From Acidobacteriota bacterium (GTDB lineage Bacteria; Acidobacteriota; Terriglobia; Bryobacterales; Bryobacteraceae): a DNA stretch of 64,000 nucleotides. Each line of letters begins with the position of its first letter. Position 1 is the first letter of the stretch. Below the pieces are notes generated by a model, which ran no database searches, was not told the origin of the DNA, and worked only from the letters and a program-made list of their open reading frames with translations. Positions 39,047 through 63,815 of the stretch are shown piece by piece. A program made the position numbers and the translations under genes. The stretch spans positions 987,632-1,051,631 of the forward strand of contig JAFDVZ010000002.1 of assembly GCA_018268715.1 (NCBI GenBank), read 5' to 3'.

Positions 39047-40138
39047 ATGAAATACACTCTTCCGGCCGTGGCTGCGTTAGCCCTTTCGACGGCGCTGTTG
39101 GCTCAAGCGCCCGCCCGTAATCACTCCTGGTGGCGCGATCCCGCCCCTGGCGCTGGTCGCCCGTTCACAACCGGCGCCAAGACCCTGCCGCTGATATCGG
39201 TGAAAGGCGCCCGCTTCGTCGATCCCGACGGAAAGCCGGTTCTGTTCCGCGGCGTCTCCATCTCCGATCCCGACAAGCTCGTGATGCAAGGGCATTGGAA
39301 CAAGGAACACTTCGCCAAGGCCAGGGAACTCGGCACGACGGTGCTGCGAATTCCCGTGCACCCGGTGGCGTGGCGCGAAGTGGGCGGCATCCAGTACGTC
39401 AAACTCCTCGACCAGGCGGTGGAATGGTGCACCGACCTTGGCATGTACGTGATAATCGACTGGCATTCGATCGGAAATCTCACTACCGGCGTCTATCAGG
39501 ATCCCATGTACGACACCACCCGCGAAGAGACATTCGCCTTCTGGCGCGCGATGTCGCGACACTACAACGGCCACAACACCGTCGCCTTCTTCGAACTGTT
39601 TAATGAGCCCGCCGCGTTCGGCCGGGTATCGTGGGAAGACTGGAAGCGGACGGTGGAGGACGAGATCGCCATCATTCGCGCCAATAACCGGCAGGCGATC
39701 CCCCTGGTGGCCGGCTTCGACTGGGCCTACGACCTGACTCCGCTGCGTCTGAATCCCATCGCCGCCGAAGGCATCGGCTACACCACTCATCCGTACATGT
39801 TCAAACGCCAGGAGCCCTGGGAGCCCAGGTGGGAGGAGGATTTTGGCTTTGCGGCCGCGAAATACCCCATGATCGCCACTGAGTTCGGCGGATTCGCAGC
39901 GCCCGCCGGAAGCGCCTCGACCGCGCCCGCTCCGGCGGCCGGGCGCAGCATGCCGCGCCTGATGGCGAACCCAAACTACGGTCCGGCGATCATCAAGTAT
40001 CTCGAAGGCAAGGGCATCAGTTGGGTGACGTGGTGCTTCGATCCGGAATGGGGTCCGTCGCTGCTCGCCGACTGGAGTTATAAGCTAAGTCCTTCAGGAG
40101 AATTCACGCGCGCGGCGATGAAAGGAGAGTTGAAATAG
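39047..40138 (+). CDS. Secreted GH5 glycoside hydrolase (cellulase/mannanase family)
   Basis: 363 residues with signal peptide (MKYTLPAVAALALSTALLAQ). TIM-barrel GH5 motifs: 'GKPVLFRGVSISDP', 'VLRIPVHPVAW', 'LGMYVIIDWHS', the acid/base E187 in 'FFELFNEPAAF', and the nucleophile E279 in 'MIATEFGGFA'. Acts on beta-1,4-glucan or mannan. It lies 3 nt upstream of a GH26 gene, so the pair probably works together on mannan-type hemicellulose. The subfamily cannot be fixed by eye. Confidence 0.92.
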   Translation: MKYTLPAVAALALSTALLAQAPARNHSWWRDPAPGAGRPFTTGAKTLPLISVKGARFVDPDGKPVLFRGVSISDPDKLVMQGHWNKEHFAKARELGTTVLRIPVHPVAWREVGGIQYVKLLDQAVEWCTDLGMYVIIDWHSIGNLTTGVYQDPMYDTTREETFAFWRAMSRHYNGHNTVAFFELFNEPAAFGRVSWEDWKRTVEDEIAIIRANNRQAIPLVAGFDWAYDLTPLRLNPIAAEGIGYTTHPYMFKRQEPWEPRWEEDFGFAAAKYPMIATEFGGFAAPAGSASTAPAPAAGRSMPRLMANPNYGPAIIKYLEGKGISWVTWCFDPEWGPSLLADWSYKLSPSGEFTRAAMKGELK

Positions 40139-40141
40139 ACT

Positions 40142-41248
40142 ATGTCCCGGTCAGCCATTCCGCTCATCGCGTTGGCCGTCGCCTCGGCGGTGGTTGCGCA
40201 GACCCCGCCTCCGGCCGCTCTGGAAACGCAGCAGATCCGTCCGCCGTCTCCGCCCCCGTACGCCTGCGACCCCGTCAACGCGAACGCCAGCGCTGAAGCC
40301 CGGGCGTTGCTCAAGAACCTGTGTGCTATCTCGGGTAAGTCGATCCTGTCCGGGCAGCATAACTTCCCCGCCCATCTCTCGCAACACAGCGAAAAATTGG
40401 CGCAAGCGGCCGGGAAATATCCGGCCGTCTGGGGATCCGATTTCGGCTTCACCGGCGGCGACGACAAAGACTCCGTGGCCCACCGTCAGGAAATGATAGA
40501 TGAGGCTAAGAAGCAGGCCGCGCAAGGGTCGATCATCACGCTGTGTTGGCACATGCTCCGCCCCACGGAGGATGAGCCTGGCTCTCCGATGACGGCCTGG
40601 CGGGGCAGCGTGCAGGCTCGTCTCACCGATGAACAGTGGGCCGAACTGATAACGCCCGACACGCCCCTGCACAAGCGCTGGGAGCAGTACATGGACACGG
40701 CCGCCGGCTATCTGAAGCAGTTGCGCGACGCGCACGTTCCGGTCCTGTTCCGGCCCATGCATGAAAACAACGGGTCGTTCTTCTGGTGGGGTGGACGTCC
40801 CGGCATGGGAGGCACGGCCGAGTTATTCCGGCAAGTGTACGCCCGCATGGTGTACGTCCATCATCTCGACAACCTGCTGTGGGTCTGGAACCAGAACGGC
40901 CCCGCGCCGACCGGCGAGTTCATTAACTTCTTCCCGGGTCAGAAATACGTCGACATCGTGAGTTACGACAATTACCGTCCGCTCGCGGATCGGTTCTACT
41001 ATGAGTTAATGGACCTGGCCGAAGGCAAGCCGGTCGCGTTGGGCGAAATCGGACAGCCGTTCGCTCCCGAACTGCTGAACACGCAGACTCGATGGGTCTA
41101 TTTCATGGGCTGGTCCGACATTTTCGAACGTAGCGGGGATTGCCGCCCGAACGAGGCCGCCGAGCAATGTCAGGGCCGGCAAGCCCGTCTGAAAGCGTTG
41201 TTCGCCGACCCGCGAGTCCTCGGCCGCGGCGAATTTCCGCCGAAATAG
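40142..41248 (+). CDS. Secreted GH26 beta-mannanase family protein
   Basis: 368 residues with signal peptide (MSRSAIPLIALAVASAVVAQ). GH26 barrel: 'ILSGQHNFP', 'AVWGSDFGF', the acid/base E208 in 'FRPMHENNGSFFWWG' (with the conserved preceding H207), and the nucleophile E302 in 'VALGEIGQPF'. Most GH26 enzymes are endo-beta-1,4-mannanases. It follows the GH5 gene by 3 nt, and its TAG directly abuts the stop of the convergent carboxylase gene. Confidence 0.93.
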   Translation: MSRSAIPLIALAVASAVVAQTPPPAALETQQIRPPSPPPYACDPVNANASAEARALLKNLCAISGKSILSGQHNFPAHLSQHSEKLAQAAGKYPAVWGSDFGFTGGDDKDSVAHRQEMIDEAKKQAAQGSIITLCWHMLRPTEDEPGSPMTAWRGSVQARLTDEQWAELITPDTPLHKRWEQYMDTAAGYLKQLRDAHVPVLFRPMHENNGSFFWWGGRPGMGGTAELFRQVYARMVYVHHLDNLLWVWNQNGPAPTGEFINFFPGQKYVDIVSYDNYRPLADRFYYELMDLAEGKPVALGEIGQPFAPELLNTQTRWVYFMGWSDIFERSGDCRPNEAAEQCQGRQARLKALFADPRVLGRGEFPPK

Positions 41249-52354: not shown

Positions 52355-54829
52355 TCACCGCCCCAGTTCGACGGTAAGCGCCGTCCGCTCGAACTCGCTC
52401 CAGGGAATGAAACGCTTCCGCGGCGCCCCATCGGCCCTGCGGATCGTCAGGCTAACGTTCGCCCGCCGTATGCGCAGGTTGCTGATCTCGACATCTCCCA
52501 ACGCCTCGGGAACATGCGGCTCAAACGTCACGCCCTGGCGCGAAGGCTCGATGCCCGCAACCCCGGAAAACAGCATGCGCAGATAAGCCGATGCGGCCCA
52601 ACTCTGCCGCGGTTGGGACTCCCACAACCCGATCCCGCGCCCTCCCCGCTCCTGCAATCCGCCATAAACCGCGCCCGTCAACGGATGATAGATTTCGGCG
52701 AACTGCCGGTCCCGCACCGCATGCGCGGCCAACTGCGACAGCTCATGCCACAGCATCGCCACGTCGCCCCGCCGGGCCGCCGCATCCGCCCACATACCCT
52801 GTATCTGCGGCCACACGGTCCCAGCGTGCCGGCTGAAATCGGCCGAGCCCTCCTTGCGATACCGCGGATAGTCCGGCCACACCGCGGGGACGCCCGCGGG
52901 CATGACGGTCTGCGCGCCGAGTACGGCCCGGCCGCGCGTCTCATCGGCCACGCCGAACAACAGCACGTACGCGTTGCCCAGCGCCTCCTGCCGGTCGCTT
53001 GCGCCGAACGGTCCGGTGAGGAAGCGGTAACGGTCCCCGGTCCACAGCACGGTGTTGATCGCCTGTCGCAGATGCTCCGCCTTGCGCGCCCATTCCGGAT
53101 CGACCATCTCGCCCAACTCCGCCGCCATCTCAATGCGTACACGGTACGCGTTGTAGTACAGGCAATTCGTCGACAACGCCTTCATCGGGATCCCGTACCC
53201 GCGCGGCGCCTTGCGATCGGGATTGTGGCGAGGCCACGTATTGATTCCACTCTCGCCGTTCGCGCCGGCGTACTCATCGGGATAAGCGGCCACCCCGTCG
53301 CTCCAACCGGGCCCGCGAAACAACCCATCGGCGGCGTCGAACTCCGTGTCTTCGTAGTAGGCAAGCGAGTTCGTCACCGCCTCTTTCGCGATGCTCAGAA
53401 ACTCGCGATCCCCGGTCAGCAGGTAGTAACGCCAGGCGCCGGTGGCCCACACGATAGCGTCCCAATACTGATCTCCGCCGATGATGCGGACCCCCTGCGG
53501 CGTCCGTTCGAGCACGGCCAGCAGCGTATTGCGAGCCGCCTCGGGAGCAATCAGCGGCAACCCGTTCCAGGCGTTCACAGCCGCGTCGCGCGTCCACGGC
53601 GTGTTGTATCCTAACCCCGCCAGCAGCACCGGCGCGGGCGCCTCGAGCAGCCCCGAACGGTACATGGCGATGTTGCCCGCCAGGTCGCCGATCGCGATGC
53701 GATAGGCCGTGTCCACGGTGCGATCGCCGGTCCGCACCGCCGGCGTGCGGAACTCGACGGCCGCCGGATTCGCCGTCAGCCATTCGGCGTCGAAGCGAGC
53801 GAATTCGATCCGTTCAATCGAGCTCCGCTCGCCGGCTTCATACAGCACGCCGATGGTCCCGTCGCTCAGTGCGATCACCGTGGAGTAGGCGGCCGGGCCT
53901 TCATGAATCACCCGCGAAACCGGCCATGTGCGAGCGCCATCCCGGCTCATGCGGATGGTCAGCCGTTCGCGTTTCGTCGCGCTGGCGGCGTTGGTGAACA
54001 GCACCGCATCTCCAAAGCGCGTAATGCCGGCGTTGCAGCTCGGATCCACCAGCACGGCGTCGTGCGACATCGCGCCGAACGTCACGCCCCCGTCATGGGA
54101 AATCGCAATCGCGCGCGTCTTGCCGTTGCGCATGTTCTGCATCACCACACCGCCGGCGAGCTCGACGGCATGGCTCTCATCGGTGTCCGATCCGCCCGCC
54201 GAACCCGCGCGCCACGTCTTGCCGTGATCGTCGCTATAGACATTGCGCGATCCCACCACGCCCTGCGCATCGCGCGTCACCAGCGGAACCAGCAGCCGTC
54301 CGCTCGTCAGTTGGTGATTCGTGCCGGAGGTCGCGAACATGCCCTTCCAGGAAGGATCGCGGAACTGCGGCGACACGTCTTCGGGCTCCGACCACGTCTC
54401 GCCGTCATCGTCGGAGTGCATGGCGTGAACCTCCAGCGCGGTCGCCGTTGCTGTTCCAAAACCCACTCCCGGCCCGCCGTACGCATGGAAGCACCACACG
54501 CGCCCATTCGTGCGATCGACCAGCAGCGAAGCGTCGCCCACGCCGCCCGCCTTCACTGCGTACAACGTACGCGTCGGAGTCCACGTGCGGCCCTGATCAA
54601 AACTCCGCCGTATGACCAGCGAGATTCGCGCCGGCAGATCGCCGGTCCCGTCGTGCCGCGCGTCCGCCACGGCGATCAGCGTCCCCTTGCGCGTCTCCGC
54701 CAGGGCCGGGATGCGATACGTGTGTACGCCGCCCTCGCCCTGTCGAAACAGCACCGTCTGTTGAAACAGCGGCCCGGCCGTCAACCCGGCCGCCGCAAGA
54801 AGGGTAAGAAACGCGGTTCGCGATACCAT
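52355..54829 (-). CDS. Sialidase (GH33-like) fused to (alpha/alpha)6-barrel glycosidase
   Basis: 824 residues with signal peptide (MVSRTAFLTLLAAAGLTAG). Residues about 25-395 form a six-blade sialidase: 'HTYRIPALAE' (YRIP arginine R39), Asp-boxes such as 'SFDQGRTW', 'SDDDGETWS', 'SDDHGKTWR' and 'SRDGARTWP'. Residues about 400-790 are an (alpha/alpha)6 domain like GH37/GH63/GH95-type enzymes: 'GYNTPWTRDAAVNAWNGLPL', 'GDQYWDAIVWATGAWRYYL', 'GTVWPQIQGMWADAAARRGD'. The C-terminus is a beta domain. The ATG at 54829 lies directly against the divergent start at 54831; in-frame ATGs at 54832, 54844 and 54877 also exist. Confidence 0.84.
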   Translation of the reverse strand: MVSRTAFLTLLAAAGLTAGPLFQQTVLFRQGEGGVHTYRIPALAETRKGTLIAVADARHDGTGDLPARISLVIRRSFDQGRTWTPTRTLYAVKAGGVGDASLLVDRTNGRVWCFHAYGGPGVGFGTATATALEVHAMHSDDDGETWSEPEDVSPQFRDPSWKGMFATSGTNHQLTSGRLLVPLVTRDAQGVVGSRNVYSDDHGKTWRAGSAGGSDTDESHAVELAGGVVMQNMRNGKTRAIAISHDGGVTFGAMSHDAVLVDPSCNAGITRFGDAVLFTNAASATKRERLTIRMSRDGARTWPVSRVIHEGPAAYSTVIALSDGTIGVLYEAGERSSIERIEFARFDAEWLTANPAAVEFRTPAVRTGDRTVDTAYRIAIGDLAGNIAMYRSGLLEAPAPVLLAGLGYNTPWTRDAAVNAWNGLPLIAPEAARNTLLAVLERTPQGVRIIGGDQYWDAIVWATGAWRYYLLTGDREFLSIAKEAVTNSLAYYEDTEFDAADGLFRGPGWSDGVAAYPDEYAGANGESGINTWPRHNPDRKAPRGYGIPMKALSTNCLYYNAYRVRIEMAAELGEMVDPEWARKAEHLRQAINTVLWTGDRYRFLTGPFGASDRQEALGNAYVLLFGVADETRGRAVLGAQTVMPAGVPAVWPDYPRYRKEGSADFSRHAGTVWPQIQGMWADAAARRGDVAMLWHELSQLAAHAVRDRQFAEIYHPLTGAVYGGLQERGGRGIGLWESQPRQSWAASAYLRMLFSGVAGIEPSRQGVTFEPHVPEALGDVEISNLRIRRANVSLTIRRADGAPRKRFIPWSEFERTALTVELGR

Positions 54830-54830
54830 C

Positions 54831-56159
54831 ATGAAACAGACCATGATATGCCCCGTCCCGCATAGAATTCTGGCCACCGCCGTCGCCGCTCTCGCCGTCG
54901 TCAGCGCCTTCGCCGATCTGAACGGATCCTACATCCTCCCCCAGGACCACGCCGCCATCGCCTACAGCACGGCGCCCGTTACGGACCGCGTCGCCGCTAT
55001 CCAGGCCCAGTTGCGGACCGGCAAACTGAAGTTGAAGTACGACGATCGGCACGGCTACCTGGAGCCCTTGCTGAAGGCCTTGAACATCCCCATCGCCTCG
55101 CAGGTGCTGGTGTTTTCGAAGACCAGTTTTCAAGCGCCGCGCATCAGCCCCCGAACGGCCCGCGCCCTGTACTTCTCAAGCGACGTGTACGTCGGCTGGG
55201 TCCCCGGCGGCGACGTGGTGGAGATCGCGGCCATGGACCCGCGCCAGGGCGTCATCTTCTACACGATGGATCAGGACGCCGCCGCGAAGCCCCGCATCGA
55301 CCGTCGCGACGAATGCCTGCAATGCCACGCCTCGGGCGGAACGTTGGGCGTGCCCGGCCTCATCGTGCGTTCGGTATTCGTCGAACGTTCCGGCATGCCC
55401 TTGTTTAACGCGGGCGGCTTCGTCACGGACCATCGCAGCCCGCTCGCCGAACGTTGGGGCGGTTGGTACGTGACGGGAACGCACGGCGCGGCGCGCCACA
55501 TGGGCAACGTGTTCGCCCAGGACCGCGACCACCCGGACCGTCTCGACCGCGAGAGCGGCGCCAACGCAGCCAGCCTGAAGGACCGCATCGACACGGCCAA
55601 CTATCTGGCCCCATCCAGCGACATCGTGGCGCTGATGGTGCTCGAGCATCAGACGCGCATGTTAAACCTGCTGACGCGCGTGGGATGGGAAACGCGTCTG
55701 GCGCTTGCCGACCAGCAGGCGATCAACCGGGCGTTGGGCGAGCCGGCGGACACGCTGGGCGACAGCACGCGCCGCCGCATCGACAACGCCGTGGAGGAGT
55801 TGGTGAAGTACCTGTTATTCGCCGAGGAAGCGCCTCTGGAGTCCCCCATCGCCGGTGCGGCGGACTTCGCTGCGGCGTTTCAATCCCAAGGCCCGCGCGA
55901 CAGGCAGGGCCGGTCGTTGCGCGATCTCGACATGACCACGCGCATGTTCCGCCACCCGTGCAGCTATCTCATCTACTCGGAAGCGTTCGACAGCCTCCCG
56001 CCCGCGGCCCTCGATCGGATCTACCACCGTCTCCACGAAATCCTGACCGGCGCGGATAGGAGCGCGACCTACAAGCGCCTCACCTCCGCCGATCGCAAAG
56101 CCGTGCTGGAGATCCTGCTCGATACAAAGAGGACGCTCCCCGCCGAGTGGCGGAATTAG
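54831..56159 (+). CDS. Exported CxxCH (c-type haem) hypothetical protein
   Basis: 442 residues with a signal peptide (h-region 'ILATAVAALAVVSAFA'). A single haem-binding motif 'ECLQCHASGG' lies at about residue 162-171, and candidate distal ligands (His or Met) follow in 'HGAARHMGNVFAQD'. The rest is not assigned; the flow 'GVIFYTMDQDAAAKPRIDRR' before the haem motif suggests one folded domain. It could be a redox protein of the periplasm. Start at 54831 overlaps the divergent gene; 54843 is an alternative. The 3' end overlaps the convergent vapC stop by 4 nt. Confidence 0.75.
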   Translation: MKQTMICPVPHRILATAVAALAVVSAFADLNGSYILPQDHAAIAYSTAPVTDRVAAIQAQLRTGKLKLKYDDRHGYLEPLLKALNIPIASQVLVFSKTSFQAPRISPRTARALYFSSDVYVGWVPGGDVVEIAAMDPRQGVIFYTMDQDAAAKPRIDRRDECLQCHASGGTLGVPGLIVRSVFVERSGMPLFNAGGFVTDHRSPLAERWGGWYVTGTHGAARHMGNVFAQDRDHPDRLDRESGANAASLKDRIDTANYLAPSSDIVALMVLEHQTRMLNLLTRVGWETRLALADQQAINRALGEPADTLGDSTRRRIDNAVEELVKYLLFAEEAPLESPIAGAADFAAAFQSQGPRDRQGRSLRDLDMTTRMFRHPCSYLIYSEAFDSLPPAALDRIYHRLHEILTGADRSATYKRLTSADRKAVLEILLDTKRTLPAEWRN

Positions 56160-56566
56160 GATCGGCTCGGGTCCACAATCTGGAGCGTGGGGAACAGGCT
56201 CCGGTAGAAGCCCCGATCACGCGACAGCAGCCGTGTCGCATGCATCTGCGCGTGAGCGCCCACCAGAAAGTCCGCCAAAACGCGCGTGCGCTTGCCGCCC
56301 TTCATGCGGTATTGACGCCAGATGCGGCTCGACAGAAACAGCGCCTCGCGGCTCAACGACTGCAGGCGGATCTGAGCGTCGGCCAGGAAACGTTCGCACT
56401 CATCCTGCCGTTCGAAGTGCATCGCGAGTTCGGCGTAGACGATATCGCAGATCACCAGCGATCCCTCCTGCGCCGACTCTTGCAGCGCCTCGGCGGAGGC
56501 GTCGCAGAAATCCTTGTTCGGCAACAGAATATCCAGCAGAATGTTCGTATCGATGGCGGAGATCAT
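56156..56566 (-). CDS. vapC: VapC-family PIN-domain toxin
   Basis: 136-residue PIN ribonuclease, toxin of a type II toxin-antitoxin module. Acidic active-site residues are visible: D6 in 'SAIDTNILLDILL', the glutamate in 'CDIVYAELAMHF' and the aspartates around 'RVLADFLVGAHA' and 'LLSRDRGFY'. Its ATG overlaps the antitoxin stop by 4 nt (ATGA), the usual antitoxin-first arrangement. Its target RNA is unknown. Confidence 0.92.
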   Translation of the reverse strand: MISAIDTNILLDILLPNKDFCDASAEALQESAQEGSLVICDIVYAELAMHFERQDECERFLADAQIRLQSLSREALFLSSRIWRQYRMKGGKRTRVLADFLVGAHAQMHATRLLSRDRGFYRSLFPTLQIVDPSRS

Positions 56567-56837: not shown

Positions 56838-57398
56838 CTACACCCAATCGCGGAACAGTTCCTTGCGAGGTGCCGCAATCACCGCCCGGCCCACCAGCAT
56901 CCCCTCTTCCGCCGCCACGCGAGCTCCCACCGCCACCGCGGATTCGACGCTCGACACATCGCCGGTCATCACCACAAAGCCCTTCCCGCCGAGCGCCATC
57001 GCTAGGTGAATCTTCAGCAACACCACGTTGGCCGACTTCACCGCCGCATCGGCGACGTCGATGATCGAGGAAGCGGAAAACGTCTCCACCACTCCCAAGG
57101 CTCGAATCTGTTCGGGCATTACATCGACGGCCTGCGCGACCGCTGGAAACACCGAAGGGTGGATCCGCGTGATGACGCGCTTCTCAATCAGCGCGCCCGT
57201 GCACAGCCGGGCGCCGGCCTCCACCGCCGCCTGCGTGGAAGCCACGTCGCCCCCCACTGCGATGAGATACTTCCCCGAGCAGATCGACCGCGCCAGCAGC
57301 ACGTCCACCGAGGCCGCCTTCAACATCGCGTCCAGCGCCAGATAGCCAATCGCGACGCTCGTCACTTCCAACAACCCAATCGAATTCAGATCCGCCAT
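56838..57398 (-). CDS. pduT: BMC-T shell protein, PduT-like (tandem BMC domains, pore cysteine)
   Basis: 186 residues with two BMC domains (about 5-90 and 98-180: 'SIGLLEVTSVAIGYLALDAM' and 'ALGVVETFSASSIIDVADAA'), forming a trimeric pseudohexamer of a microcompartment shell. C40 in 'RSICSGKYLIAVGGDV' aligns with Cys38 of Salmonella PduT ('ICPGKF'), where three copies hold a [4Fe-4S] cluster in the central pore. Its gene follows pduS by 2 nt, matching the known PduS-PduT partnership, so electrons probably leave the compartment through this shell protein. Similarity to PduT runs to the C-terminal 'PRKELFRDWV'. Confidence 0.93.
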   Translation of the reverse strand: MADLNSIGLLEVTSVAIGYLALDAMLKAASVDVLLARSICSGKYLIAVGGDVASTQAAVEAGARLCTGALIEKRVITRIHPSVFPAVAQAVDVMPEQIRALGVVETFSASSIIDVADAAVKSANVVLLKIHLAMALGGKGFVVMTGDVSSVESAVAVGARVAAEEGMLVGRAVIAAPRKELFRDWV

Positions 57399-57400
57399 GT

Positions 57401-58717
57401 TTAAGCCTCGATCACCACCGAACCATCCACGCTGCGCACCACCCCGTCGATGCTCGAATGTATGCGAGCCCCCAACGCGCCCTGCGCCGGCGCCGCCAGC
57501 AGATCGCCCACTCGCACCCGGTCGCCCGGACTCACCACCGCCGCGGCCGGCGCTCCCGCATGCTGCTTCAACGGCACAACCACTCGCGCCGGCGTGAGCG
57601 CCCGCTCATCGAGCGGACCAACGTCGTTGAACTGATCGAGCCCCAGTTTCAGCTTCAGCCGCCGCGTCGGAATCCGCCGGGCCTCGCCCAGCGGGTGCGG
57701 GGTAATGTCCTCGGGCTTACCCACCCAGAACAGCTTCTTCTCGCGCGCGAGCGGCTTCGCCTGCACGCAGACGTTCTTCGGATCCAGGTCTTCCGGACAG
57801 GCGAACATGCTGCACAGGTTGCACTCGCAGCAGTACAGCGTGCCCGCGAGCATAGCGTCCTTCAGGCCCGTGAACCCCAGCGCCTGCATCGCCCGATGCG
57901 GCTCAATCGGATGACCCAGCAGAAACCGCGGACACATCTCCGTGCAAAACCGGCACTGGTCGCAAGCCGACCGTCCGATCCGCTCAATGTGCTTCCAGGT
58001 TCCTTTGTAGCGAGCCACCAACGGGTGATCGAACGGCAGCACCACAATGCCGCCCGTGGTCTTGGTCACCGGTTCGTCCGTGCGGCCCAACCGTGCCATC
58101 ATGACGCCGCCCAGTAGGATTTCGAACTGCGCTGCCGTCGCGCCGCCCGCCGCGGCGATCACCTCGCCGACGCTCATCCCCACCGGAACCCGCAGCGTCA
58201 CCGGATTCGCCACCGCGCCGGCCACCGTTAGGTACTTGTGCGTCACCGGCCGGTCGTTGCCGATATTGATCAGGGTTTCGACGTTCGCCACCACCGCGCC
58301 GACGTCCTTCGGCAGGCCGCCCGGCGGAATCACCTTCCCCGTGACGTCGTGCACCAGGATGAATTCATCGCCGGCCGGATAGCTGTCGCTCAGCGGGAAC
58401 ACGCGAATACCCGCCGGCGCCTGCGCGCCCAGTTCCGCGATGATGTCCTTGTACTTGTTCTTGACGCCGATGACGCCTTCGGCCGCGCCGGTCAGCTCCA
58501 TCGCCGCGCGCAGACCACTGAGCATGGCCCCGGCGTGGTGATGCATCAGTTCCTTGTCTTTGTGCAACAGCGGTTCGCACTCGGCGCCGTTGACGATCAC
58601 CAGCGGAACGCGGGCGTTCAATTTGACGGCGGTGGGGAAGCCCGCGCCGCCCGCGCCGACGATGCCGAGCTCCGCGATGCGGTCGAGAACGGAGGCAGTC
58701 ACGTCAGAGGTCTCCAT
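57401..58717 (-). CDS. pduS: PduS-like flavin/iron-sulfur electron-transfer protein of BMC
   Basis: 438 residues related to PduS and RnfC. An N-terminal flavin/nucleotide loop 'GIVGAGGAGFPTA' at about 18-30, 'VNGAECEPLLHKDKELM', an SLBB-type domain ('VPVGMSVGEVIAAAGG'), and two [4Fe-4S] motifs: C252, C255, C258, C262 ('CDQCRFCTEMCP') and C296/C297, C299, C302, C307 ('CCECNLCSMFACP'). In Pdu compartments it reduces cobalamin or regenerates cofactors; here no B12 enzyme is visible, so general NADH re-oxidation is the more cautious role. ATG at 58717 is 28 nt after the predicted +1; ATG at 58753 lies inside the promoter and is rejected. Confidence 0.92.
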   Translation of the reverse strand: METSDVTASVLDRIAELGIVGAGGAGFPTAVKLNARVPLVIVNGAECEPLLHKDKELMHHHAGAMLSGLRAAMELTGAAEGVIGVKNKYKDIIAELGAQAPAGIRVFPLSDSYPAGDEFILVHDVTGKVIPPGGLPKDVGAVVANVETLINIGNDRPVTHKYLTVAGAVANPVTLRVPVGMSVGEVIAAAGGATAAQFEILLGGVMMARLGRTDEPVTKTTGGIVVLPFDHPLVARYKGTWKHIERIGRSACDQCRFCTEMCPRFLLGHPIEPHRAMQALGFTGLKDAMLAGTLYCCECNLCSMFACPEDLDPKNVCVQAKPLAREKKLFWVGKPEDITPHPLGEARRIPTRRLKLKLGLDQFNDVGPLDERALTPARVVVPLKQHAGAPAAAVVSPGDRVRVGDLLAAPAQGALGARIHSSIDGVVRSVDGSVVIEA

Positions 58718-58732
58718 AATTTCTGCACGACT

Positions 58733-58765
58733 TTGATTGACTCTGACGGACATTATATGTAAACT
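58733..58765 (+). promoter_or_regulatory. Promoter for plus-strand BMC operon
   Basis: Two overlapping options, each with 17-bp spacing: TTGACT (58737-58742) with TAAACT (58760-58765), or TTGATT (58733-58738) with TATGTA (58756-58761). Both place +1 about 10-15 nt before the kinase ATG at 58782, so the leader is short. It overlaps the opposite promoter, so polymerase occupancy at one side may affect the other. Confidence 0.55.
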
Positions 58766-58780
58766 ATCACTTGCCGTCAA
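58752..58780 (-). promoter_or_regulatory. Consensus promoter for pduS-pduT operon
   Basis: Minus-strand TTGACG (58780-58775) and a perfect TATAAT (58757-58752) spaced by 17 bp. Predicted +1 near 58745, leader about 28 nt to the pduS ATG. It interleaves with the plus-strand promoter within the same 64-bp intergenic region. Confidence 0.75.
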
Positions 58781-58781
58781 T

Positions 58782-59918
58782 ATGAAGGTCCTAGTCGCCA
58801 ATATTGGCAGTACATCGTTCAAGTACCGCGTCTTCGAGATGGACGACGAGCAGGTGCTGGGCGAAGGCCGCGTCGAGCGCATCGGGCAGCCCGGCGGGGA
58901 TTGCCCGGACTATGACACGGCCATCCGCCGGTGCCTGGCCACCATCGACTATCCGCTTGACGTCGTGGGCTTTAAAGCCGTGCATGCGGGCCCGCTGAGC
59001 GGCGCCAACCTGGTCGACGATCGGGTTCTCGCGGCCATGGAAGAGTTCAGCTTCCACGCCCCGGCCCACAACCCTCCCTACATCGCCGCAATTCGCGGAT
59101 TTCAGCACGTTTTGCCCTCAGTACCGCTCGCCGCGCTGCTCGAAACGGCCTTTTTCGACCAGGTTCCGGAAGCCGCAACGACATACGCCGTGCCGTACGC
59201 CTGGAAGGAAGAGCTGGGCGTCCGGCGCTACGGATTCCACGGCGCAAGCCATCGCGCAGCGTCCGAAAACGTGCAAAAACTGCTCGAAAAACGCGATTTA
59301 CGACACATTTCGTGCCACTTAGGAGGCAGTTCGAGCCTTGCCGCGGTGCGCAACGGCGTCGCCATCGACTCCAGTTTTGGCATGTCGCCGCAGTCCGGAT
59401 TGCCCCATAACAACCGTACAGGCGACATCGACAGCTTCGCTATCTTGTTCGTAATGAAGCGCTTAGGGCTGGGCGTCGATGAGATGGCCTCCATCCTGGC
59501 GACGAAATCGGGCCTGGCCGGCATGAGCGGCACATCAGGAGACATGCGCGACCTCGAAGAGGCCGCCCAAGCCGGAAACGCGCGCGCAAAGTGCGCGATT
59601 GACATGTTTACGCGCTCGATTCGGCACTATATCGGCGCGTTTTGGCTCGAATTGGGCGGCCTGGACGTGCTTACGTTCTCCGGCGGCATCGGCGAGAACA
59701 GCCGCGCGCTGAGAGCCTCGGTTTGCGCCGGTTTGGGCGGTTTTGGGCTCGAAATCGACCAAAAACGCAACGAAAGCGTACGAGGACAGGGCGTGATTTC
59801 CACCGATCAATCGAAGGTGAAGGTGATCGTCATCCCGGCCGATGAAGAGCGCATTGTCGCCCGGGCCTCGGCGGCGTTGGTTTCAAAGTCAGTCAAGAAC
59901 GGTCAGACTCAGTCATGA
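58782..59918 (+). CDS. ackA: Acetate/propionate kinase-like protein of BMC locus, altered active site
   Basis: 378 residues of the ASKHA acetokinase family, expected to turn acyl-phosphate plus ADP into acid plus ATP. Family motifs: 'VANIGSTSFKYR' (N7), 'HAPAHNPPYIAAI' (H96, N97), 'VRRYGFHGASHRA' (H153), 'NRTGDID' (R212) and 'FSGGIGENS' with its glutamate. Several catalytic positions differ from Methanosarcina acetate kinase by eye: Arg91 to Lys65 ('GFKAVHAG'), Asp148 to Glu121 ('ETAFFDQ') and Asn211 to Gly182 ('CHLGGSSS'). First gene of the plus-strand BMC operon; its stop overlaps the pduL start (ATGA). Confidence 0.85.
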   Translation: MKVLVANIGSTSFKYRVFEMDDEQVLGEGRVERIGQPGGDCPDYDTAIRRCLATIDYPLDVVGFKAVHAGPLSGANLVDDRVLAAMEEFSFHAPAHNPPYIAAIRGFQHVLPSVPLAALLETAFFDQVPEAATTYAVPYAWKEELGVRRYGFHGASHRAASENVQKLLEKRDLRHISCHLGGSSSLAAVRNGVAIDSSFGMSPQSGLPHNNRTGDIDSFAILFVMKRLGLGVDEMASILATKSGLAGMSGTSGDMRDLEEAAQAGNARAKCAIDMFTRSIRHYIGAFWLELGGLDVLTFSGGIGENSRALRASVCAGLGGFGLEIDQKRNESVRGQGVISTDQSKVKVIVIPADEERIVARASAALVSKSVKNGQTQS

Positions 59919-60577
59919 CGTACGGACCTATATCTCGCGCCGATGTCGAGAAGATCGTGCGCCAGGTGGTGCTCGAACAGCTCGGACAGGCCAAGCAGAA
60001 CCCGGCGCCGGTGCTGACGGTGCACGCTTCGGCGCGCCACATGCACGTCAGCCGCGAGGATCTCGATAAACTCTACGGGCCGGGCCACGAGCTCACGCCG
60101 GACCGCCCGCTGTTCCAGGAAGGCAACTACGCCGCCAAGGAAACGGTGACCCTGGTCGGGCCGCGCGGGCGGGTGATCTCGAACCTGCGGATCCTGGGGC
60201 CGATGCGGAAGCAGTCCCAGATCGAGCTCGCGTTTACGGACGCGATCAGCCTGGGTCTCGACATCCCCATACGCATCTCGGGCGACATCAAGGGGACGCC
60301 GGGCGCCGTTGTGATGGGGCCCAAGGGCGTCGTCGAATTGAAGGAAGGCGTGATCCGCGCCGCCATCCACGTACATATGAACCCGGCCGAGGCGGCGCAC
60401 TTCGGCGTGAAGCAGGGCGACATGATGAAGCTCCGCGTCGGCGGAGCGGCGGGGCTGACGTTTGACCGCGTGGCGGTCCGCATCGACCCGACTTCGCGCC
60501 TGAACGTCCACATGGACACCGATGAAGCGAACGCGTGCGGCCTGCATCTGGCCAAGGAACTCGAATTAGTCAAGTAG
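59915..60577 (+). CDS. pduL: Phosphotransacylase PduL (BMC-associated)
   Basis: 220 residues; converts acyl-CoA plus phosphate to acyl-phosphate plus CoA, regenerating CoA inside the compartment. Zinc-site histidines are visible as H42/H44 in 'SARHMHVS', H152/H154 in 'IHVHMN' and H198 in 'LNVHMDTDE'. An amphipathic N-terminal helix ('ISRADVEKIVRQVVLEQLGQ') followed by a linker looks like an encapsulation peptide. The start overlaps the kinase gene by 4 nt, linking the two steps from acyl-CoA to acid. Confidence 0.96.
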   Translation: MTYGPISRADVEKIVRQVVLEQLGQAKQNPAPVLTVHASARHMHVSREDLDKLYGPGHELTPDRPLFQEGNYAAKETVTLVGPRGRVISNLRILGPMRKQSQIELAFTDAISLGLDIPIRISGDIKGTPGAVVMGPKGVVELKEGVIRAAIHVHMNPAEAAHFGVKQGDMMKLRVGGAAGLTFDRVAVRIDPTSRLNVHMDTDEANACGLHLAKELELVK

Positions 60578-60589
60578 GGAGAATCCGCG

Positions 60590-60877
60590 ATGAAACAAGC
60601 GCTCGGAATGATCGAAACGAAAGGACTCGTGGCCCTGTTCGAAGCGGCTGACGCCATGTTGAAGGCGGCGGACGTGGAGTTTGTGGGCTGGGAGACCGTG
60701 GGCAGCGGGCTGGTGACGGCCTTTGTCCAGGGAGATGTGGCGGCCGTGAAAGCGGCCACGGATGTCGGGGCGGCGGCCGCGGCGAAGATCGGCGAGGTGG
60801 CGAGCGTCCAGGTGATCTCGCGGCCCCACGACGAGCTGCCGTCGTTTGTGCAGAAGACCCCGTCGGCGGCGTCCTAA
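60590..60877 (+). CDS. BMC-H hexameric shell protein (copy 1)
   Basis: 95-residue single BMC domain (Pfam 00936 type): '[20 protein letters not shown]', '[20 protein letters not shown]' and '[16 protein letters not shown]'. The pore loop is 'TVGSGL', the common small-residue pore. Forms hexagonal facets of the shell. AGGGAGA lies upstream of the ATG. It resembles copy 3 more than copy 2 and has a short Ala/Ser tail. Confidence 0.96.
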
Positions 60878-60891
60878 AGAGGAACTGAACC

Positions 60892-61161
60892 ATGAATAAA
60901 GCGATCGGTCTGATTGAAACCCGCGGTCTGGTCGGCCTCATCGAGGCGAGCGACGCGATGGTGAAGGCCGCCAGCGTGGACCTGGTGCGCACCGTGCAGA
61001 TCGGCGGCGGCTTTGTCACCGCCATTGTGACGGGCGACGTCGGCAGCGTGAACGCCGCGGTGGCGGCGGGCGCGGCGGCGGCCAAGAACATCGGCGAACT
61101 GGTGTCGTCGCACGTGATCGCGCGGCCGCACGAAGCGCTGATCAAAGTGATGCTGCCCTAA
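60892..61161 (+). CDS. BMC-H hexameric shell protein (copy 2)
   Basis: 89-residue BMC domain with '[20 protein letters not shown]' and '[16 protein letters not shown]'. The pore loop 'QIGGGF' has three glycines and differs from the two other copies, so metabolite selectivity may differ. AGAGGAA ribosome binding site; 14 nt after copy 1. Confidence 0.96.
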
Positions 61162-61174
61162 AGGAGAACGGACA

Positions 61175-61447
61175 ATGGCGAACCAGGCATTAGGAATGAT
61201 CGAGACCAAGGGCCTTGTCGCGCTGGTGCAGGCCACCGATGCGATGTTGAAGGCCGCCCCGGTTGAATACAAGGGCTGGAAGAAAGTCGGCAGCGGACTG
61301 TGCAGCGTGTTTGTGACCGGCGACGTCGGCGCGGTGCGCGCGGCGGTGGACGCGGGCGCGGCGGCGGCTCGGGCCATCGGCGAAGTGGTCAGCGTGCACG
61401 TGATCGCGCGGCCGCACGACGATCTGTCGCAAGTGCTGCCGAAGTAA
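61175..61447 (+). CDS. BMC-H hexameric shell protein (copy 3)
   Basis: 90-residue BMC domain with '[20 protein letters not shown]' and '[16 protein letters not shown]'. Pore loop 'VGSGLC' carries a cysteine right after it, not present in copies 1 and 2. AAGGAGA ribosome binding site. The closeness to copy 1 suggests tandem duplication. Confidence 0.96.
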
Positions 61448-61459
61448 AGGCGGCGCGCC

Positions 61460-61756
61460 ATGTTCCTTGCGAAAGTCATCGGAAGCGTCGTTTCGACGCA
61501 GAAGGACCCGCGCTTCAGCGGCATGAAACTGCTGCTGATTCAGCCGTACATCAACAAAGAGGGCGTGCTGGTTACCTCCGGCAGTTCGGTGGTGGCGGTG
61601 GACAGCGTGGGCGCGGGCGCCGGCGAATGCGTGCTGTTCACGCAGGGCAGTTCGGCGCGGCTCACCGATACGACCAAGGACAAGCCGGTGGACGCGGTGA
61701 TTGTAGGGATTGTGGATTCCGTTGAAGTGGACGGAAAACGCGTGGAGAAGCCGTAA
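61460..61756 (+). CDS. BMC-P pentameric vertex protein (EutN/CcmL family, copy 1)
   Basis: 98 residues, pentamer that caps shell vertices. 'MFLAKVIGSVVSTQKDP' and 'AVDSVGAGAGECVLFTQGSS' are the EutN/CcmL signatures, and 'VDAVIVGIVDSVEVDG' the last strand. Its TAA is directly followed by the dehydrogenase ATG. Confidence 0.96.
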   Translation: MFLAKVIGSVVSTQKDPRFSGMKLLLIQPYINKEGVLVTSGSSVVAVDSVGAGAGECVLFTQGSSARLTDTTKDKPVDAVIVGIVDSVEVDGKRVEKP

Positions 61757-63190
61757 ATGCAGAATCGCGAACAACTGATTGCCGATATCGCGCGCGAGGT
61801 GATCGCGCGGCTCGCCGTGCAATTGCCCGCGCCGCGGCCGGCCGTTGCGCCGTCGGCGTCGCAGGATGGCGTGTTCGAGACCGTCGACGAAGCGGTGAAG
61901 GCGGCCGGCGAGGCGCAGAAGCGCGTGGCGAAGATGAGCCTGGACGATCGCGGAAAGGCCATCAACATCATCCGGCGCATTTGCGAGGACCGGTCCGCGG
62001 AACTGGCCCGGCGCGAGTTGGACGAGACGGGCCTGGGGCGGCTGGATCACAAGATCGAGAAGCTGAAGCTGATCAAGCGCGTGCTGGGCGTCGAGTTCCT
62101 GCGCAGCGAGGCTCGCACGGATGCTTCCGGGCTGGCGCTGATTGAGTACGCTCCTTTCGGCGTGATCGGCATGGTGCTGCCGGCGACACATTCCGCGCCA
62201 ACGCTTGCGTCGAATGCGATCAACGTGATCGCTTCGGGCAATACGGCGGTGTTCAGTCCGCATCCGGCGGGCGCGAAGGTGGCCGCTTACGCGATGCAGT
62301 TGTTCAATCGCGAAATCGAGCGCGAACTGGGCGTGCCGAACATGCTGACGACGGTTCGCGAGCCGAGCATACAGTCGGCCGAACAGATCTTCCATCATCC
62401 GGGCATCCATCTTCTCTGCGTGACGGGCGGCCCGGCGGTGGTGGCGGCGGCGGCGAAGGCGGGCAAGCGCGTGATTGCCGCGGGACCGGGGAATCCTCCG
62501 GTGGTGATCGACGAGACGGCCGACCTGGACGCGGCGGCTCGGGCGATTATCGATGGAGCGGCGTTCGACAATAACCTGCTGTGCATTGGCGAAAAGGAAG
62601 TGTTCGCGGTGGCGAAGATCTTCGACGCCTATATGACCGCGATGCGCGCGGCGGGCGCGGTTGAGTTGGACAAGCAGGCCATCGAGCGATTGACCGCGGC
62701 GGCTTTCACCTTCGACGGCGGAGGCGTGGGCTGCGGCCGGGCGCATGTGCGCAAGGAACTGGTGGGCAAGGACGTCAGCGTGCTGGCGCAGGCGGCGGGC
62801 GTGCGGGTTCCGGCGAATACTCCGCTGCTGTTCGGCGAGACGACGAAGGACCATCCGTTCGTGGTCGAAGAACAGATGATGCCGTTCCTTCCCGTGGTTC
62901 GCGTGAACTGCGTGGACGCCGCGATTTCGGCGGCGCTCGAGGCGGAACATAACTACCGGCACACCTCCATCATTCATTCGAAGAACCTGGAGAACGTGAC
63001 CAAGTTCGCCCGCGTGATGAATACGACGCTGTGCGTGCATAACGCGCCTTGTTCGGCCGCGCTGGGACTGGGCGGGCCGGGGTATCTGAGCTATAGCATC
63101 GCTACTCCGACGGGCGAGGGCGTGACTACGCCGTTGACGTTTACGCGGCAGCGACAGATTGTGGTCGGCGGTGGGTTGAGGATTGTTTGA
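61757..63190 (+). CDS. pduP: CoA-acylating aldehyde dehydrogenase (PduP/EutE-like) of BMC
   Basis: 477 residues; oxidises a toxic aldehyde with NAD+ and CoA to acyl-CoA, the core reaction of this type of compartment. N-terminal helix 'REQLIADIAREVIARLAVQL' followed by a Pro/Ala linker is a typical encapsulation peptide. Catalytic C276 in 'DNNLLCIGEKEV', and 'PATHSAPTLASNAINVIASG' plus 'VTGGPAVVAAAAKAGK' are conserved in PduP/EutE-type enzymes. The aldehyde cannot be told (acetaldehyde, propionaldehyde or lactaldehyde). Start ATG is adjacent to the preceding stop. Confidence 0.95.
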   Translation: MQNREQLIADIAREVIARLAVQLPAPRPAVAPSASQDGVFETVDEAVKAAGEAQKRVAKMSLDDRGKAINIIRRICEDRSAELARRELDETGLGRLDHKIEKLKLIKRVLGVEFLRSEARTDASGLALIEYAPFGVIGMVLPATHSAPTLASNAINVIASGNTAVFSPHPAGAKVAAYAMQLFNREIERELGVPNMLTTVREPSIQSAEQIFHHPGIHLLCVTGGPAVVAAAAKAGKRVIAAGPGNPPVVIDETADLDAAARAIIDGAAFDNNLLCIGEKEVFAVAKIFDAYMTAMRAAGAVELDKQAIERLTAAAFTFDGGGVGCGRAHVRKELVGKDVSVLAQAAGVRVPANTPLLFGETTKDHPFVVEEQMMPFLPVVRVNCVDAAISAALEAEHNYRHTSIIHSKNLENVTKFARVMNTTLCVHNAPCSAALGLGGPGYLSYSIATPTGEGVTTPLTFTRQRQIVVGGGLRIV

Positions 63191-63234
63191 GCAGTGGTCG
63201 GTGGTCAGTGGCGAGTGGCTCGTGACGGGTGGAC
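63191..63234 (+). repeat. Degenerate GTGG-rich direct repeat between BMC genes
   Basis: The 44-nt gap after the dehydrogenase gene is built of repeated GGTC(A/G)GTGG-like units (cagtggtcggtggtcagtgg). It has no hairpin and codes for nothing evident. Its end supplies GGGTGG close to the next ATG. Confidence 0.5.
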
Positions 63235-63501
63235 ATGTTTTTGGCTCGTATCGATGGTCATCTGATTTCTACGCATAAGCACCCTTCGCTGGCTGGGGCG
63301 CGGTTCCTTATTGGACAGCGCTTGGAGCCGGGTGGGGTTGCTGCCGGTGAGCCGATTGTGATTGTCGATTGGATTGGGGCCGGGCGTGGAGCCACCGTGC
63401 TTGTTTCGACTGATGGCGATCTTTCGCGGGAACGGTTTGGGAATAACTCGCCGAGCCGGTATGTGGTGGCCGGGATTGTCGACAACGGGGCCTCGCTATG
63501 A
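63235..63501 (+). CDS. BMC-P pentameric vertex protein (copy 2)
   Basis: 88 residues of the EutN/CcmL family: 'MFLARIDGHLISTHKHP', 'LIGQRLEPGG', 'VDWIGAGRGATVLVSTDGD' and 'VVAGIVDNGASL'. ATG at 63235 aligns with copy 1 (MFLA); GTG at 63229 would add two residues. Third codon positions look more T-rich than in the genes upstream. Overlaps the next gene by 4 nt. Confidence 0.94.
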   Translation: MFLARIDGHLISTHKHPSLAGARFLIGQRLEPGGVAAGEPIVIVDWIGAGRGATVLVSTDGDLSRERFGNNSPSRYVVAGIVDNGASL

Positions 63502-63815
63502 GGCTTGGCGTCGTGCGTGGACGGGTTGTGCTGAGTTTGTGTGTGCCGCAGTTGAAGGGCTTGCGGTTGGTGATGCTGGAGCCTGTGACTGCTGATAATC
63601 TGGCTGCCCGGAATGGTTCGGGCGGCGGCAAGGCCCTGGTGGCCGTGGATACGCTGGGGGCCGGCGCGGGCCAGATGGTCGGTTTTGTCGAGGGGCGCGA
63701 GGCGGCGAATCCGTTTTGGCCGGGGAAGGCTCCGGTGGATGCCTATTGCGCGCTGGTGGTGGATGATTATACGTTTCGTCCGCCCGATGTTTTAAACGAT
63801 AAGGTGCAGAAATGA
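63498..63815 (+). CDS. BMC-P pentameric vertex protein (copy 3)
   Basis: 105 residues, more divergent EutN/CcmL protein: 'MRLGVVRGRVVLSLCVPQLK', 'VAVDTLGAGAGQMVGFVEGR', and 'VDAYCALVVDDYTF'. Three BMC-P copies in one locus suggest mixed or alternative vertices. Start and stop both overlap neighbours by 4 nt (ATGA), so translation is coupled. Confidence 0.92.
   Translation: MRLGVVRGRVVLSLCVPQLKGLRLVMLEPVTADNLAARNGSGGGKALVAVDTLGAGAGQMVGFVEGREAANPFWPGKAPVDAYCALVVDDYTFRPPDVLNDKVQK

Follow-up and report, generated by a model that had tools for sequence, protein, structure and literature searches.

An acidobacterial gene joining a predicted GH33-type sialidase to an (alpha/alpha)6-barrel glycosidase of an uncharacterised family

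In this study, we describe an exported protein of a soil-type acidobacterium in which a predicted GH33-type sialidase propeller is followed on the same chain by an (alpha/alpha)6-barrel glycosidase. The gene lies in the window, that is, the whole stretch of 64,000 nucleotides of acidobacterial DNA that was analysed. We believe, with a probability of about one half, that the product is an exported, probably bifunctional exo-glycosidase that joins two once-separate exported enzymes, a GH33-type propeller and a barrel acting on the same glycan. The fusion looks real and very rare, and it is of a recognisable propeller-plus-barrel kind. The features of the gene are as follows.

52355..54829, minus strand: fusion gene, 824 aa (P0001), single open frame with continuous codon bias
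54773..54829, minus strand: signal peptide, residues 1-19, MVSRTAFLTLLAAAGLTAG, identified by eye
53774..54772, minus strand: predicted GH33-type sialidase propeller, residues 20-352 (Pfam, phmmer, model match to 1EUR/1EUS)
54713..54715, minus strand: R39, first Arg of the carboxylate triad (YRIP), aligned to 1EUT
54638..54640, minus strand: D64, acid/base Asp, aligned to 1EUT, invariant in alignment A5
54176..54178, minus strand: E218, partner of the nucleophile, aligned to 1EUT
54128..54130, minus strand: R234, triad Arg, aligned to 1EUT
53969..53971, minus strand: R287, triad Arg, aligned to 1EUT
53885..53887, minus strand: Y315, nucleophile, aligned to 1EUT
53753..53773, minus strand: junction, residues 353-359, a short linker without a second signal peptide
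52358..53752, minus strand: (alpha/alpha)6-barrel glycosidase with a small C-terminal beta domain, residues 360-824
53297..53299, minus strand: D511, candidate general acid in an inter-helix loop, invariant in 8/8 close members (A3), not in the wider A6
52694..52696, minus strand: E712, candidate general base (EIYHP motif), invariant in 8/8 (A3) and 10/10 (wider A6)

The gene runs from the ATG at 54829 to the stop at 52355-52357 as one unbroken frame. Third-position GC stayed between 0.76 and 0.88 across the junction (15 overlapping segments of 100 codons each), which means that the codon-position bias is unbroken. At the junction, the last sialidase strand is followed by the mature start of the barrel, whose own leader has been precisely lost. 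The presence of the fusion in one genome only could suggest that an assembly artefact or a frame error joined two genes. Because the codon bias is continuous and the junction is clean, we rejected this explanation as extremely improbable; in addition, the frame holds no stop or break, the loss of the barrel signal peptide is exact, and the genome is 99.77% complete in 41 contigs. A hydrophobic leader also begins the standalone sialidase relatives.

The N-terminal half is predicted to be a GH33-type sialidase. The Pfam model BNR_2 matched residues 71-328 above its curated cut-off (9.1e-30). The closest solved relative of residues 20-368 was the GH33 sialidase of Micromonospora viridifaciens (1EUR, 1EUT): among the best 60 matches listed in each search, phmmer gave 2.5e-57 against 1EUT, and the A4 profile of the sialidase half gave 2.5e-71 against 1EUR. 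The full-length model had a pTM of 0.46 and its barrel half was unreliable, and its propeller part resembled 1EUR (Foldseek 2.4e-28, TM 0.81 by target) and also matched 1EUS. This match and the propeller-type strands, rather than a separate count of blades, point to a six-bladed propeller. All six catalytic residues compared with the Micromonospora sialidase were present (R39, D64, E218, R234, R287, and Y315); in 1EUT we take their roles to be those of an Arg triad, an acid/base Asp, a Glu partner, and a Tyr nucleophile. The assignment to GH33 is thus supported both by full-length similarity to solved chains and by the Arg triad, the Asp, and the Tyr/Glu pair. A further active-site Asp of the Micromonospora sialidase corresponds to D99, which is common to the four closest sequences; in the wider sialidase set, drawn from relatives and viral contigs, Asn (GNP) is the usual residue at this position. 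In the longer form of the Micromonospora sialidase, a galactose-recognising carbohydrate-binding module follows (title of entry 2BZD), whereas a second enzyme is predicted here instead.

The C-terminal half was matched by the Pfam model MGH1-like_GH (PF22422) at residues 460-724 (8.2e-18, 65.5 bits against a cut-off of 27). With both BNR_2 and this model above their cut-offs and a signal peptide recognised by eye, the first-pass annotation was right to place a sialidase and a second catalytic-looking domain on one exported chain. Its label "GH37/63/95-like" is correct for the fold superfamily; for the families themselves it did not hold, as neither the Pfam trehalase model nor the GH95 model hit P0001 at E<=1. 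The barrel homologue in the Bryobacteraceae genome G027 reached 0.0027 for trehalase and 0.015 for GH95, each below cut-off. The GH63 mannosylglycerate hydrolase and its relatives (PF22422; 2Z07, 4WVB), for which the Pfam match is above cut-off, are about 18% identical to the barrel, and the NCBIfam glucosylglycerate hydrolase model, whose cut-off is 550 bits, scored 22.8. Bac_rhamnosid6H (Pfam) scored 19.1 bits on P0001, below its cut-off of 24.5, and the G027 homologue passed with 39.7.

In a search of solved chains with the single barrel sequence, the best match was a marginal one to 7VMA (0.0064). A ten-member profile of the wider barrel family matched GH94 chitobiose phosphorylase (1V7V) best, at 4.6e-9, and 7VMA at 6.9e-7. 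The former is a phosphorylase, and the part of PMC7263609 that treats GH94 states that the phosphate site takes the place of the general base. A barrel model built from eight sequences (pLDDT 72, pTM 0.81) aligned with many catalytic glycoside hydrolases of the (alpha/alpha)6 fold at Z 25-30. AoRhaA (GH78, 8HMM; Z 29.9), 7VMA (29.7), and Rha-2 (8IWF; 29.6) were tied at the top, the GH78 alpha-L-rhamnosidases (8HMM, 8IWF, 3CIH) spanned Z 27.9-29.9, and 4WVB gave 25.2 over 333 residues. Because 7VMA ties with the rhamnosidases, the fold does not give the sugar. Judged by sequence, the barrel belongs to an uncharacterised family without a close characterised or solved relative. According to PMC7263609, GH63, GH78, and GH37 have their general base at one common barrel position, and in GH63 and GH37 the acid is located in an insertion that separates helices five and six. 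By sequence position and conservation rather than by superposition, E712 would fit the base place and D511 the acid place, and D511 is put forward as general acid with great caution.

The possibility that one half is non-catalytic, which the first-pass annotation had allowed for, did not materialise, as the conserved acidic and catalytic residues are kept in both halves. In a leave-one-out comparison, the barrel half departed at 8 of the 113 columns invariant in its seven relatives, which themselves depart at 2-8, and the sialidase half departed at 28 of 181 family-invariant columns compared with 22-27 in relatives; a degraded half was rejected on these counts. Loop losses private to the fusion affect both halves: 14 alignment columns are missing from the sialidase and 11 from the barrel. 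The combined alignments A7, A10, and A11 were discarded as misaligned: sialidase rows had partly slid into the barrel, and identity to the first row was 23-34% compared with 33-38% in A8.

The two halves were found as separate proteins elsewhere. Three genomes from the same family carry the sialidase half as a gene of its own (62-63% identity), and the barrel occurs as proteins of approximately 480-525 aa. It is 62% identical in G027, where it has its own leader (matching record CALDSU010000001.1), and 41-51% identical in Bacteroidales, Marinilabiliaceae, Anaerolineaceae, and Candidatus Neomarinimicrobiota; a Pirellulaceae copy is split over two frames. By eye, the standalone homologues carry their own signal or lipoprotein leaders. 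When the whole protein was searched in 61 genomes including its own, both halves were matched in its own genome only. For the barrel, 63 of 237 family genomes matched at E<=0.001, five of them strongly (G027, the fusion's own genome, G486, G554, and G420, with open frames of 510, 857, 568, 572, and 555 aa, respectively); among 297 phylum genomes, 27 matched, and the close match was the fusion's own genome only. A species-level genome scan returned 11 barrel loci, pointing to a scattered, uncharacterised family that may come to be recognised as a glycoside hydrolase family of its own. The sialidase half was not found in the frames picked at 17 loci, some of these frames lying on the antisense strand (at L067 and L073, for example).

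In G027 the barrel gene has no neighbouring sialidase, and in G009, G024, and G010 the sialidase is present and the barrel absent. In the four relatives examined, the halves are therefore not neighbours. Cooperation of long standing thus seems less likely than a fusion that is young or even accidental. The best reading is that the fusion is young and arose from two once-separate exported enzymes. Nor did it prove to be the common, described family that the first-pass annotation had reckoned with: it was found in no other genome searched, and the literature searched held no description of a GH33 fusion of this kind or of its substrate. Six long sialidase frames of relatives were considered as sister fusions and rejected, as no barrel was seen in them; L149 has a long C-terminal extension, and the L151 frame proved to be 402 aa, not 875. 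In two genomes belonging to the same order, single frames hold tandem sialidase-type matches, the upstream one being weak (L147 2254-4611 and L148 2401-4740). The viral scan contained no close sialidase relatives; nine contigs listed as viral in IMG/VR (L114-L122) encode sialidase relatives at 31-35% identity.

The genome with the fusion contains, on another contig, a nan-type operon of the kind used in sialic-acid catabolism (L129 7089-12140; C39:1012088-1017139), which comprises a NanA-like lyase, an MFS transporter, a NanE-ROK kinase (NanE-NanK) fusion, and a sulfatase-like frame named by eye. The NanE domain scored 236.7 bits against a cut-off of 189, and the lyase was below the NanA cut-offs (209 of 281 and 169 of 382). 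The substrate of NanE is N-acetylmannosamine-6-phosphate, which Kdo is not known to yield. The operon favours true sialic acid as one product. Because the genome has it, the target could plausibly be ordinary sialic acid, so that the earlier idea of a non-sialic sugar is not needed; nor was that idea specifically supported, the nearest solved relatives of the propeller being ordinary sialidases. Kdo or a similar keto-sugar is a possible propeller substrate. These observations add evidence that sialic-acid-type sugars are scavenged by free-living acidobacteria. Two further sialidase-type matches were present in the genome, and at L111 6246-9506 (C22) an MFS transporter, a DapA/NanA-family protein, and a divergent sialidase are encoded consecutively.

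Downstream of the fusion come an oppositely oriented PhyH gene and then a GH20-like gene on the fusion's strand. Orthologues of this PhyH gene occur in G001 (72%) and G009 (69%), and the other 14 context queries were all absent beside them. Upstream, from 56838 to 63815 of the window and continuing to L110 3337 (C22 of the genome), there is a PVM-like microcompartment locus with genes for BMC shell proteins, RnfC-like protein, aldehyde dehydrogenase, class II aldolase, DeoR regulator, acetate kinase-like (AckA-like) protein, and PduL-like protein, the names acetate kinase, PduL, EutN, and dehydrogenase having been assigned by eye. By composition, the locus is of the fucose/rhamnose-degrading type. 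PMC4207490 reports that Candidatus Solibacter usitatus has PVM-like loci and that PVM loci degrade fucose and rhamnose.

We speculated that the three arginines of the propeller would hold a terminal sialic-acid-type sugar by its carboxylate, with the Tyr/Glu pair attacking and the Asp serving as acid/base, as expected of a retaining sialidase. The barrel, probably an inverting exo-glycosidase with E712 as the likely base and D511 as the likely acid, would take off the second, neighbouring residue of the same glycan, and the released sialic acid could enter the NanA-like/NanE-NanK pathway. We infer both activities, their substrates, the order of action, and the common glycan; the full GH33 catalytic set, the barrel match above the Pfam cut-off, the lack of erosion in either half, the separate homologues with leaders of their own, and the nan-type operon in the same genome speak for this bifunctional reading. 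Against it stand the separate location of the nearest homologues of the two halves, the private loop losses, a lyase below the NanA cut-offs, and an operon on another contig. Some of these observations would also suit an accidental fusion, in which both domains fold and may be active, though against substrates unrelated to each other, or with one domain idle, and the joining brings no advantage: it was seen in one genome only, its separate halves are not co-located in relatives, both halves have private loop losses, and the gene neighbourhood is not conserved. We regard such an accident as possible if doubtful, as both halves have kept their conserved residues and an unbroken reading frame and neither is clearly more divergent from its family than its relatives are.

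The order of action may also be the reverse. BT1020, a pectin-degrading enzyme of the gut bacterium Bacteroides thetaiotaomicron (GH143/GH142, PDB 5MQR), has the same layout, an N-terminal propeller and a C-terminal barrel on one chain. As described in the BT1020 passage of PMC6811678, this bi-modular enzyme removes Araf first and then Dha from rhamnogalacturonan-II side chain D, the latter by a propeller of five blades in which the Tyr/Glu pair is retained; the enzyme is thus a described case of two activities directed at a single side chain, with sialidase-type chemistry in the propeller. The sequential action on a capped glycan proposed in the first-pass annotation is plausible in the light of this precedent, but the proposed order is opposite to that of BT1020, where the barrel acts first. 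By analogy, the barrel of P0001 would remove a cap, e.g., alpha-L-rhamnose, and the propeller would then release a keto-deoxy acid, e.g., Kdo, as on rhamnogalacturonan-II side chain C. The excerpt of PMC12282258 gives side chain C an end of Rha on Kdo; since it swaps Dha and Kdo between chains C and D, the pairing rests also on PMC12168206, whose relevant lines place Kdo on side chain C. Kdo and Dha are raised as possible GH33 substrates in plants in PMC6852159. Because of the BT1020 precedent, the Rha-Kdo end of side chain C, and these possible plant substrates, we treat the barrel-first order as a serious rival, although an unlikely one. The domain order and the alignment of the barrel model to 5MQR residues 649-1108 (Z 26.3, rmsd 3.5, 392 residues) agree with it, as do the GH78 rhamnosidases among the highest fold matches, the rhaM, GH106, and DUF2961 genes at some barrel-homologue loci, the GH106, rhaM, and Apiosidase-family genes of the genome, and the nearby PVM-like locus with its class II aldolase. 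However, 7VMA ties with the rhamnosidases, the rhaM and GH106 neighbours come from one Bacteroidales genome (L068, L075), and the link of the microcompartment to the fusion is one of proximity. The propeller resembles true sialidases by sequence rather than the five-bladed, Dha-acting GH143 module, and the nan-type operon indicates Neu5Ac. At E<=10, the two barrel profiles gave 25 and 39 chains, and 5MQR was in neither set; for the propeller, the comparison covered the best 60 matches. Quite improbable, in our opinion, is the bolder proposal of an independently assembled BT1020 counterpart, in which the chain would be uncapped by an unclassified barrel, the founder of a glycoside hydrolase family of its own, a GH33-type propeller would release the keto-deoxy acid (e.g., Rha and then Kdo on side chain C), and the deoxy-sugar microcompartment would be fed. 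P0001 offers a ready, probably two-activity protein for testing whether propeller-plus-barrel enzymes have originated repeatedly for the same task.

Elsewhere in the window, adjoining GH5-type and GH26-type genes were observed at 39047-41245, and a PIN-domain protein gene at 56156-56566.
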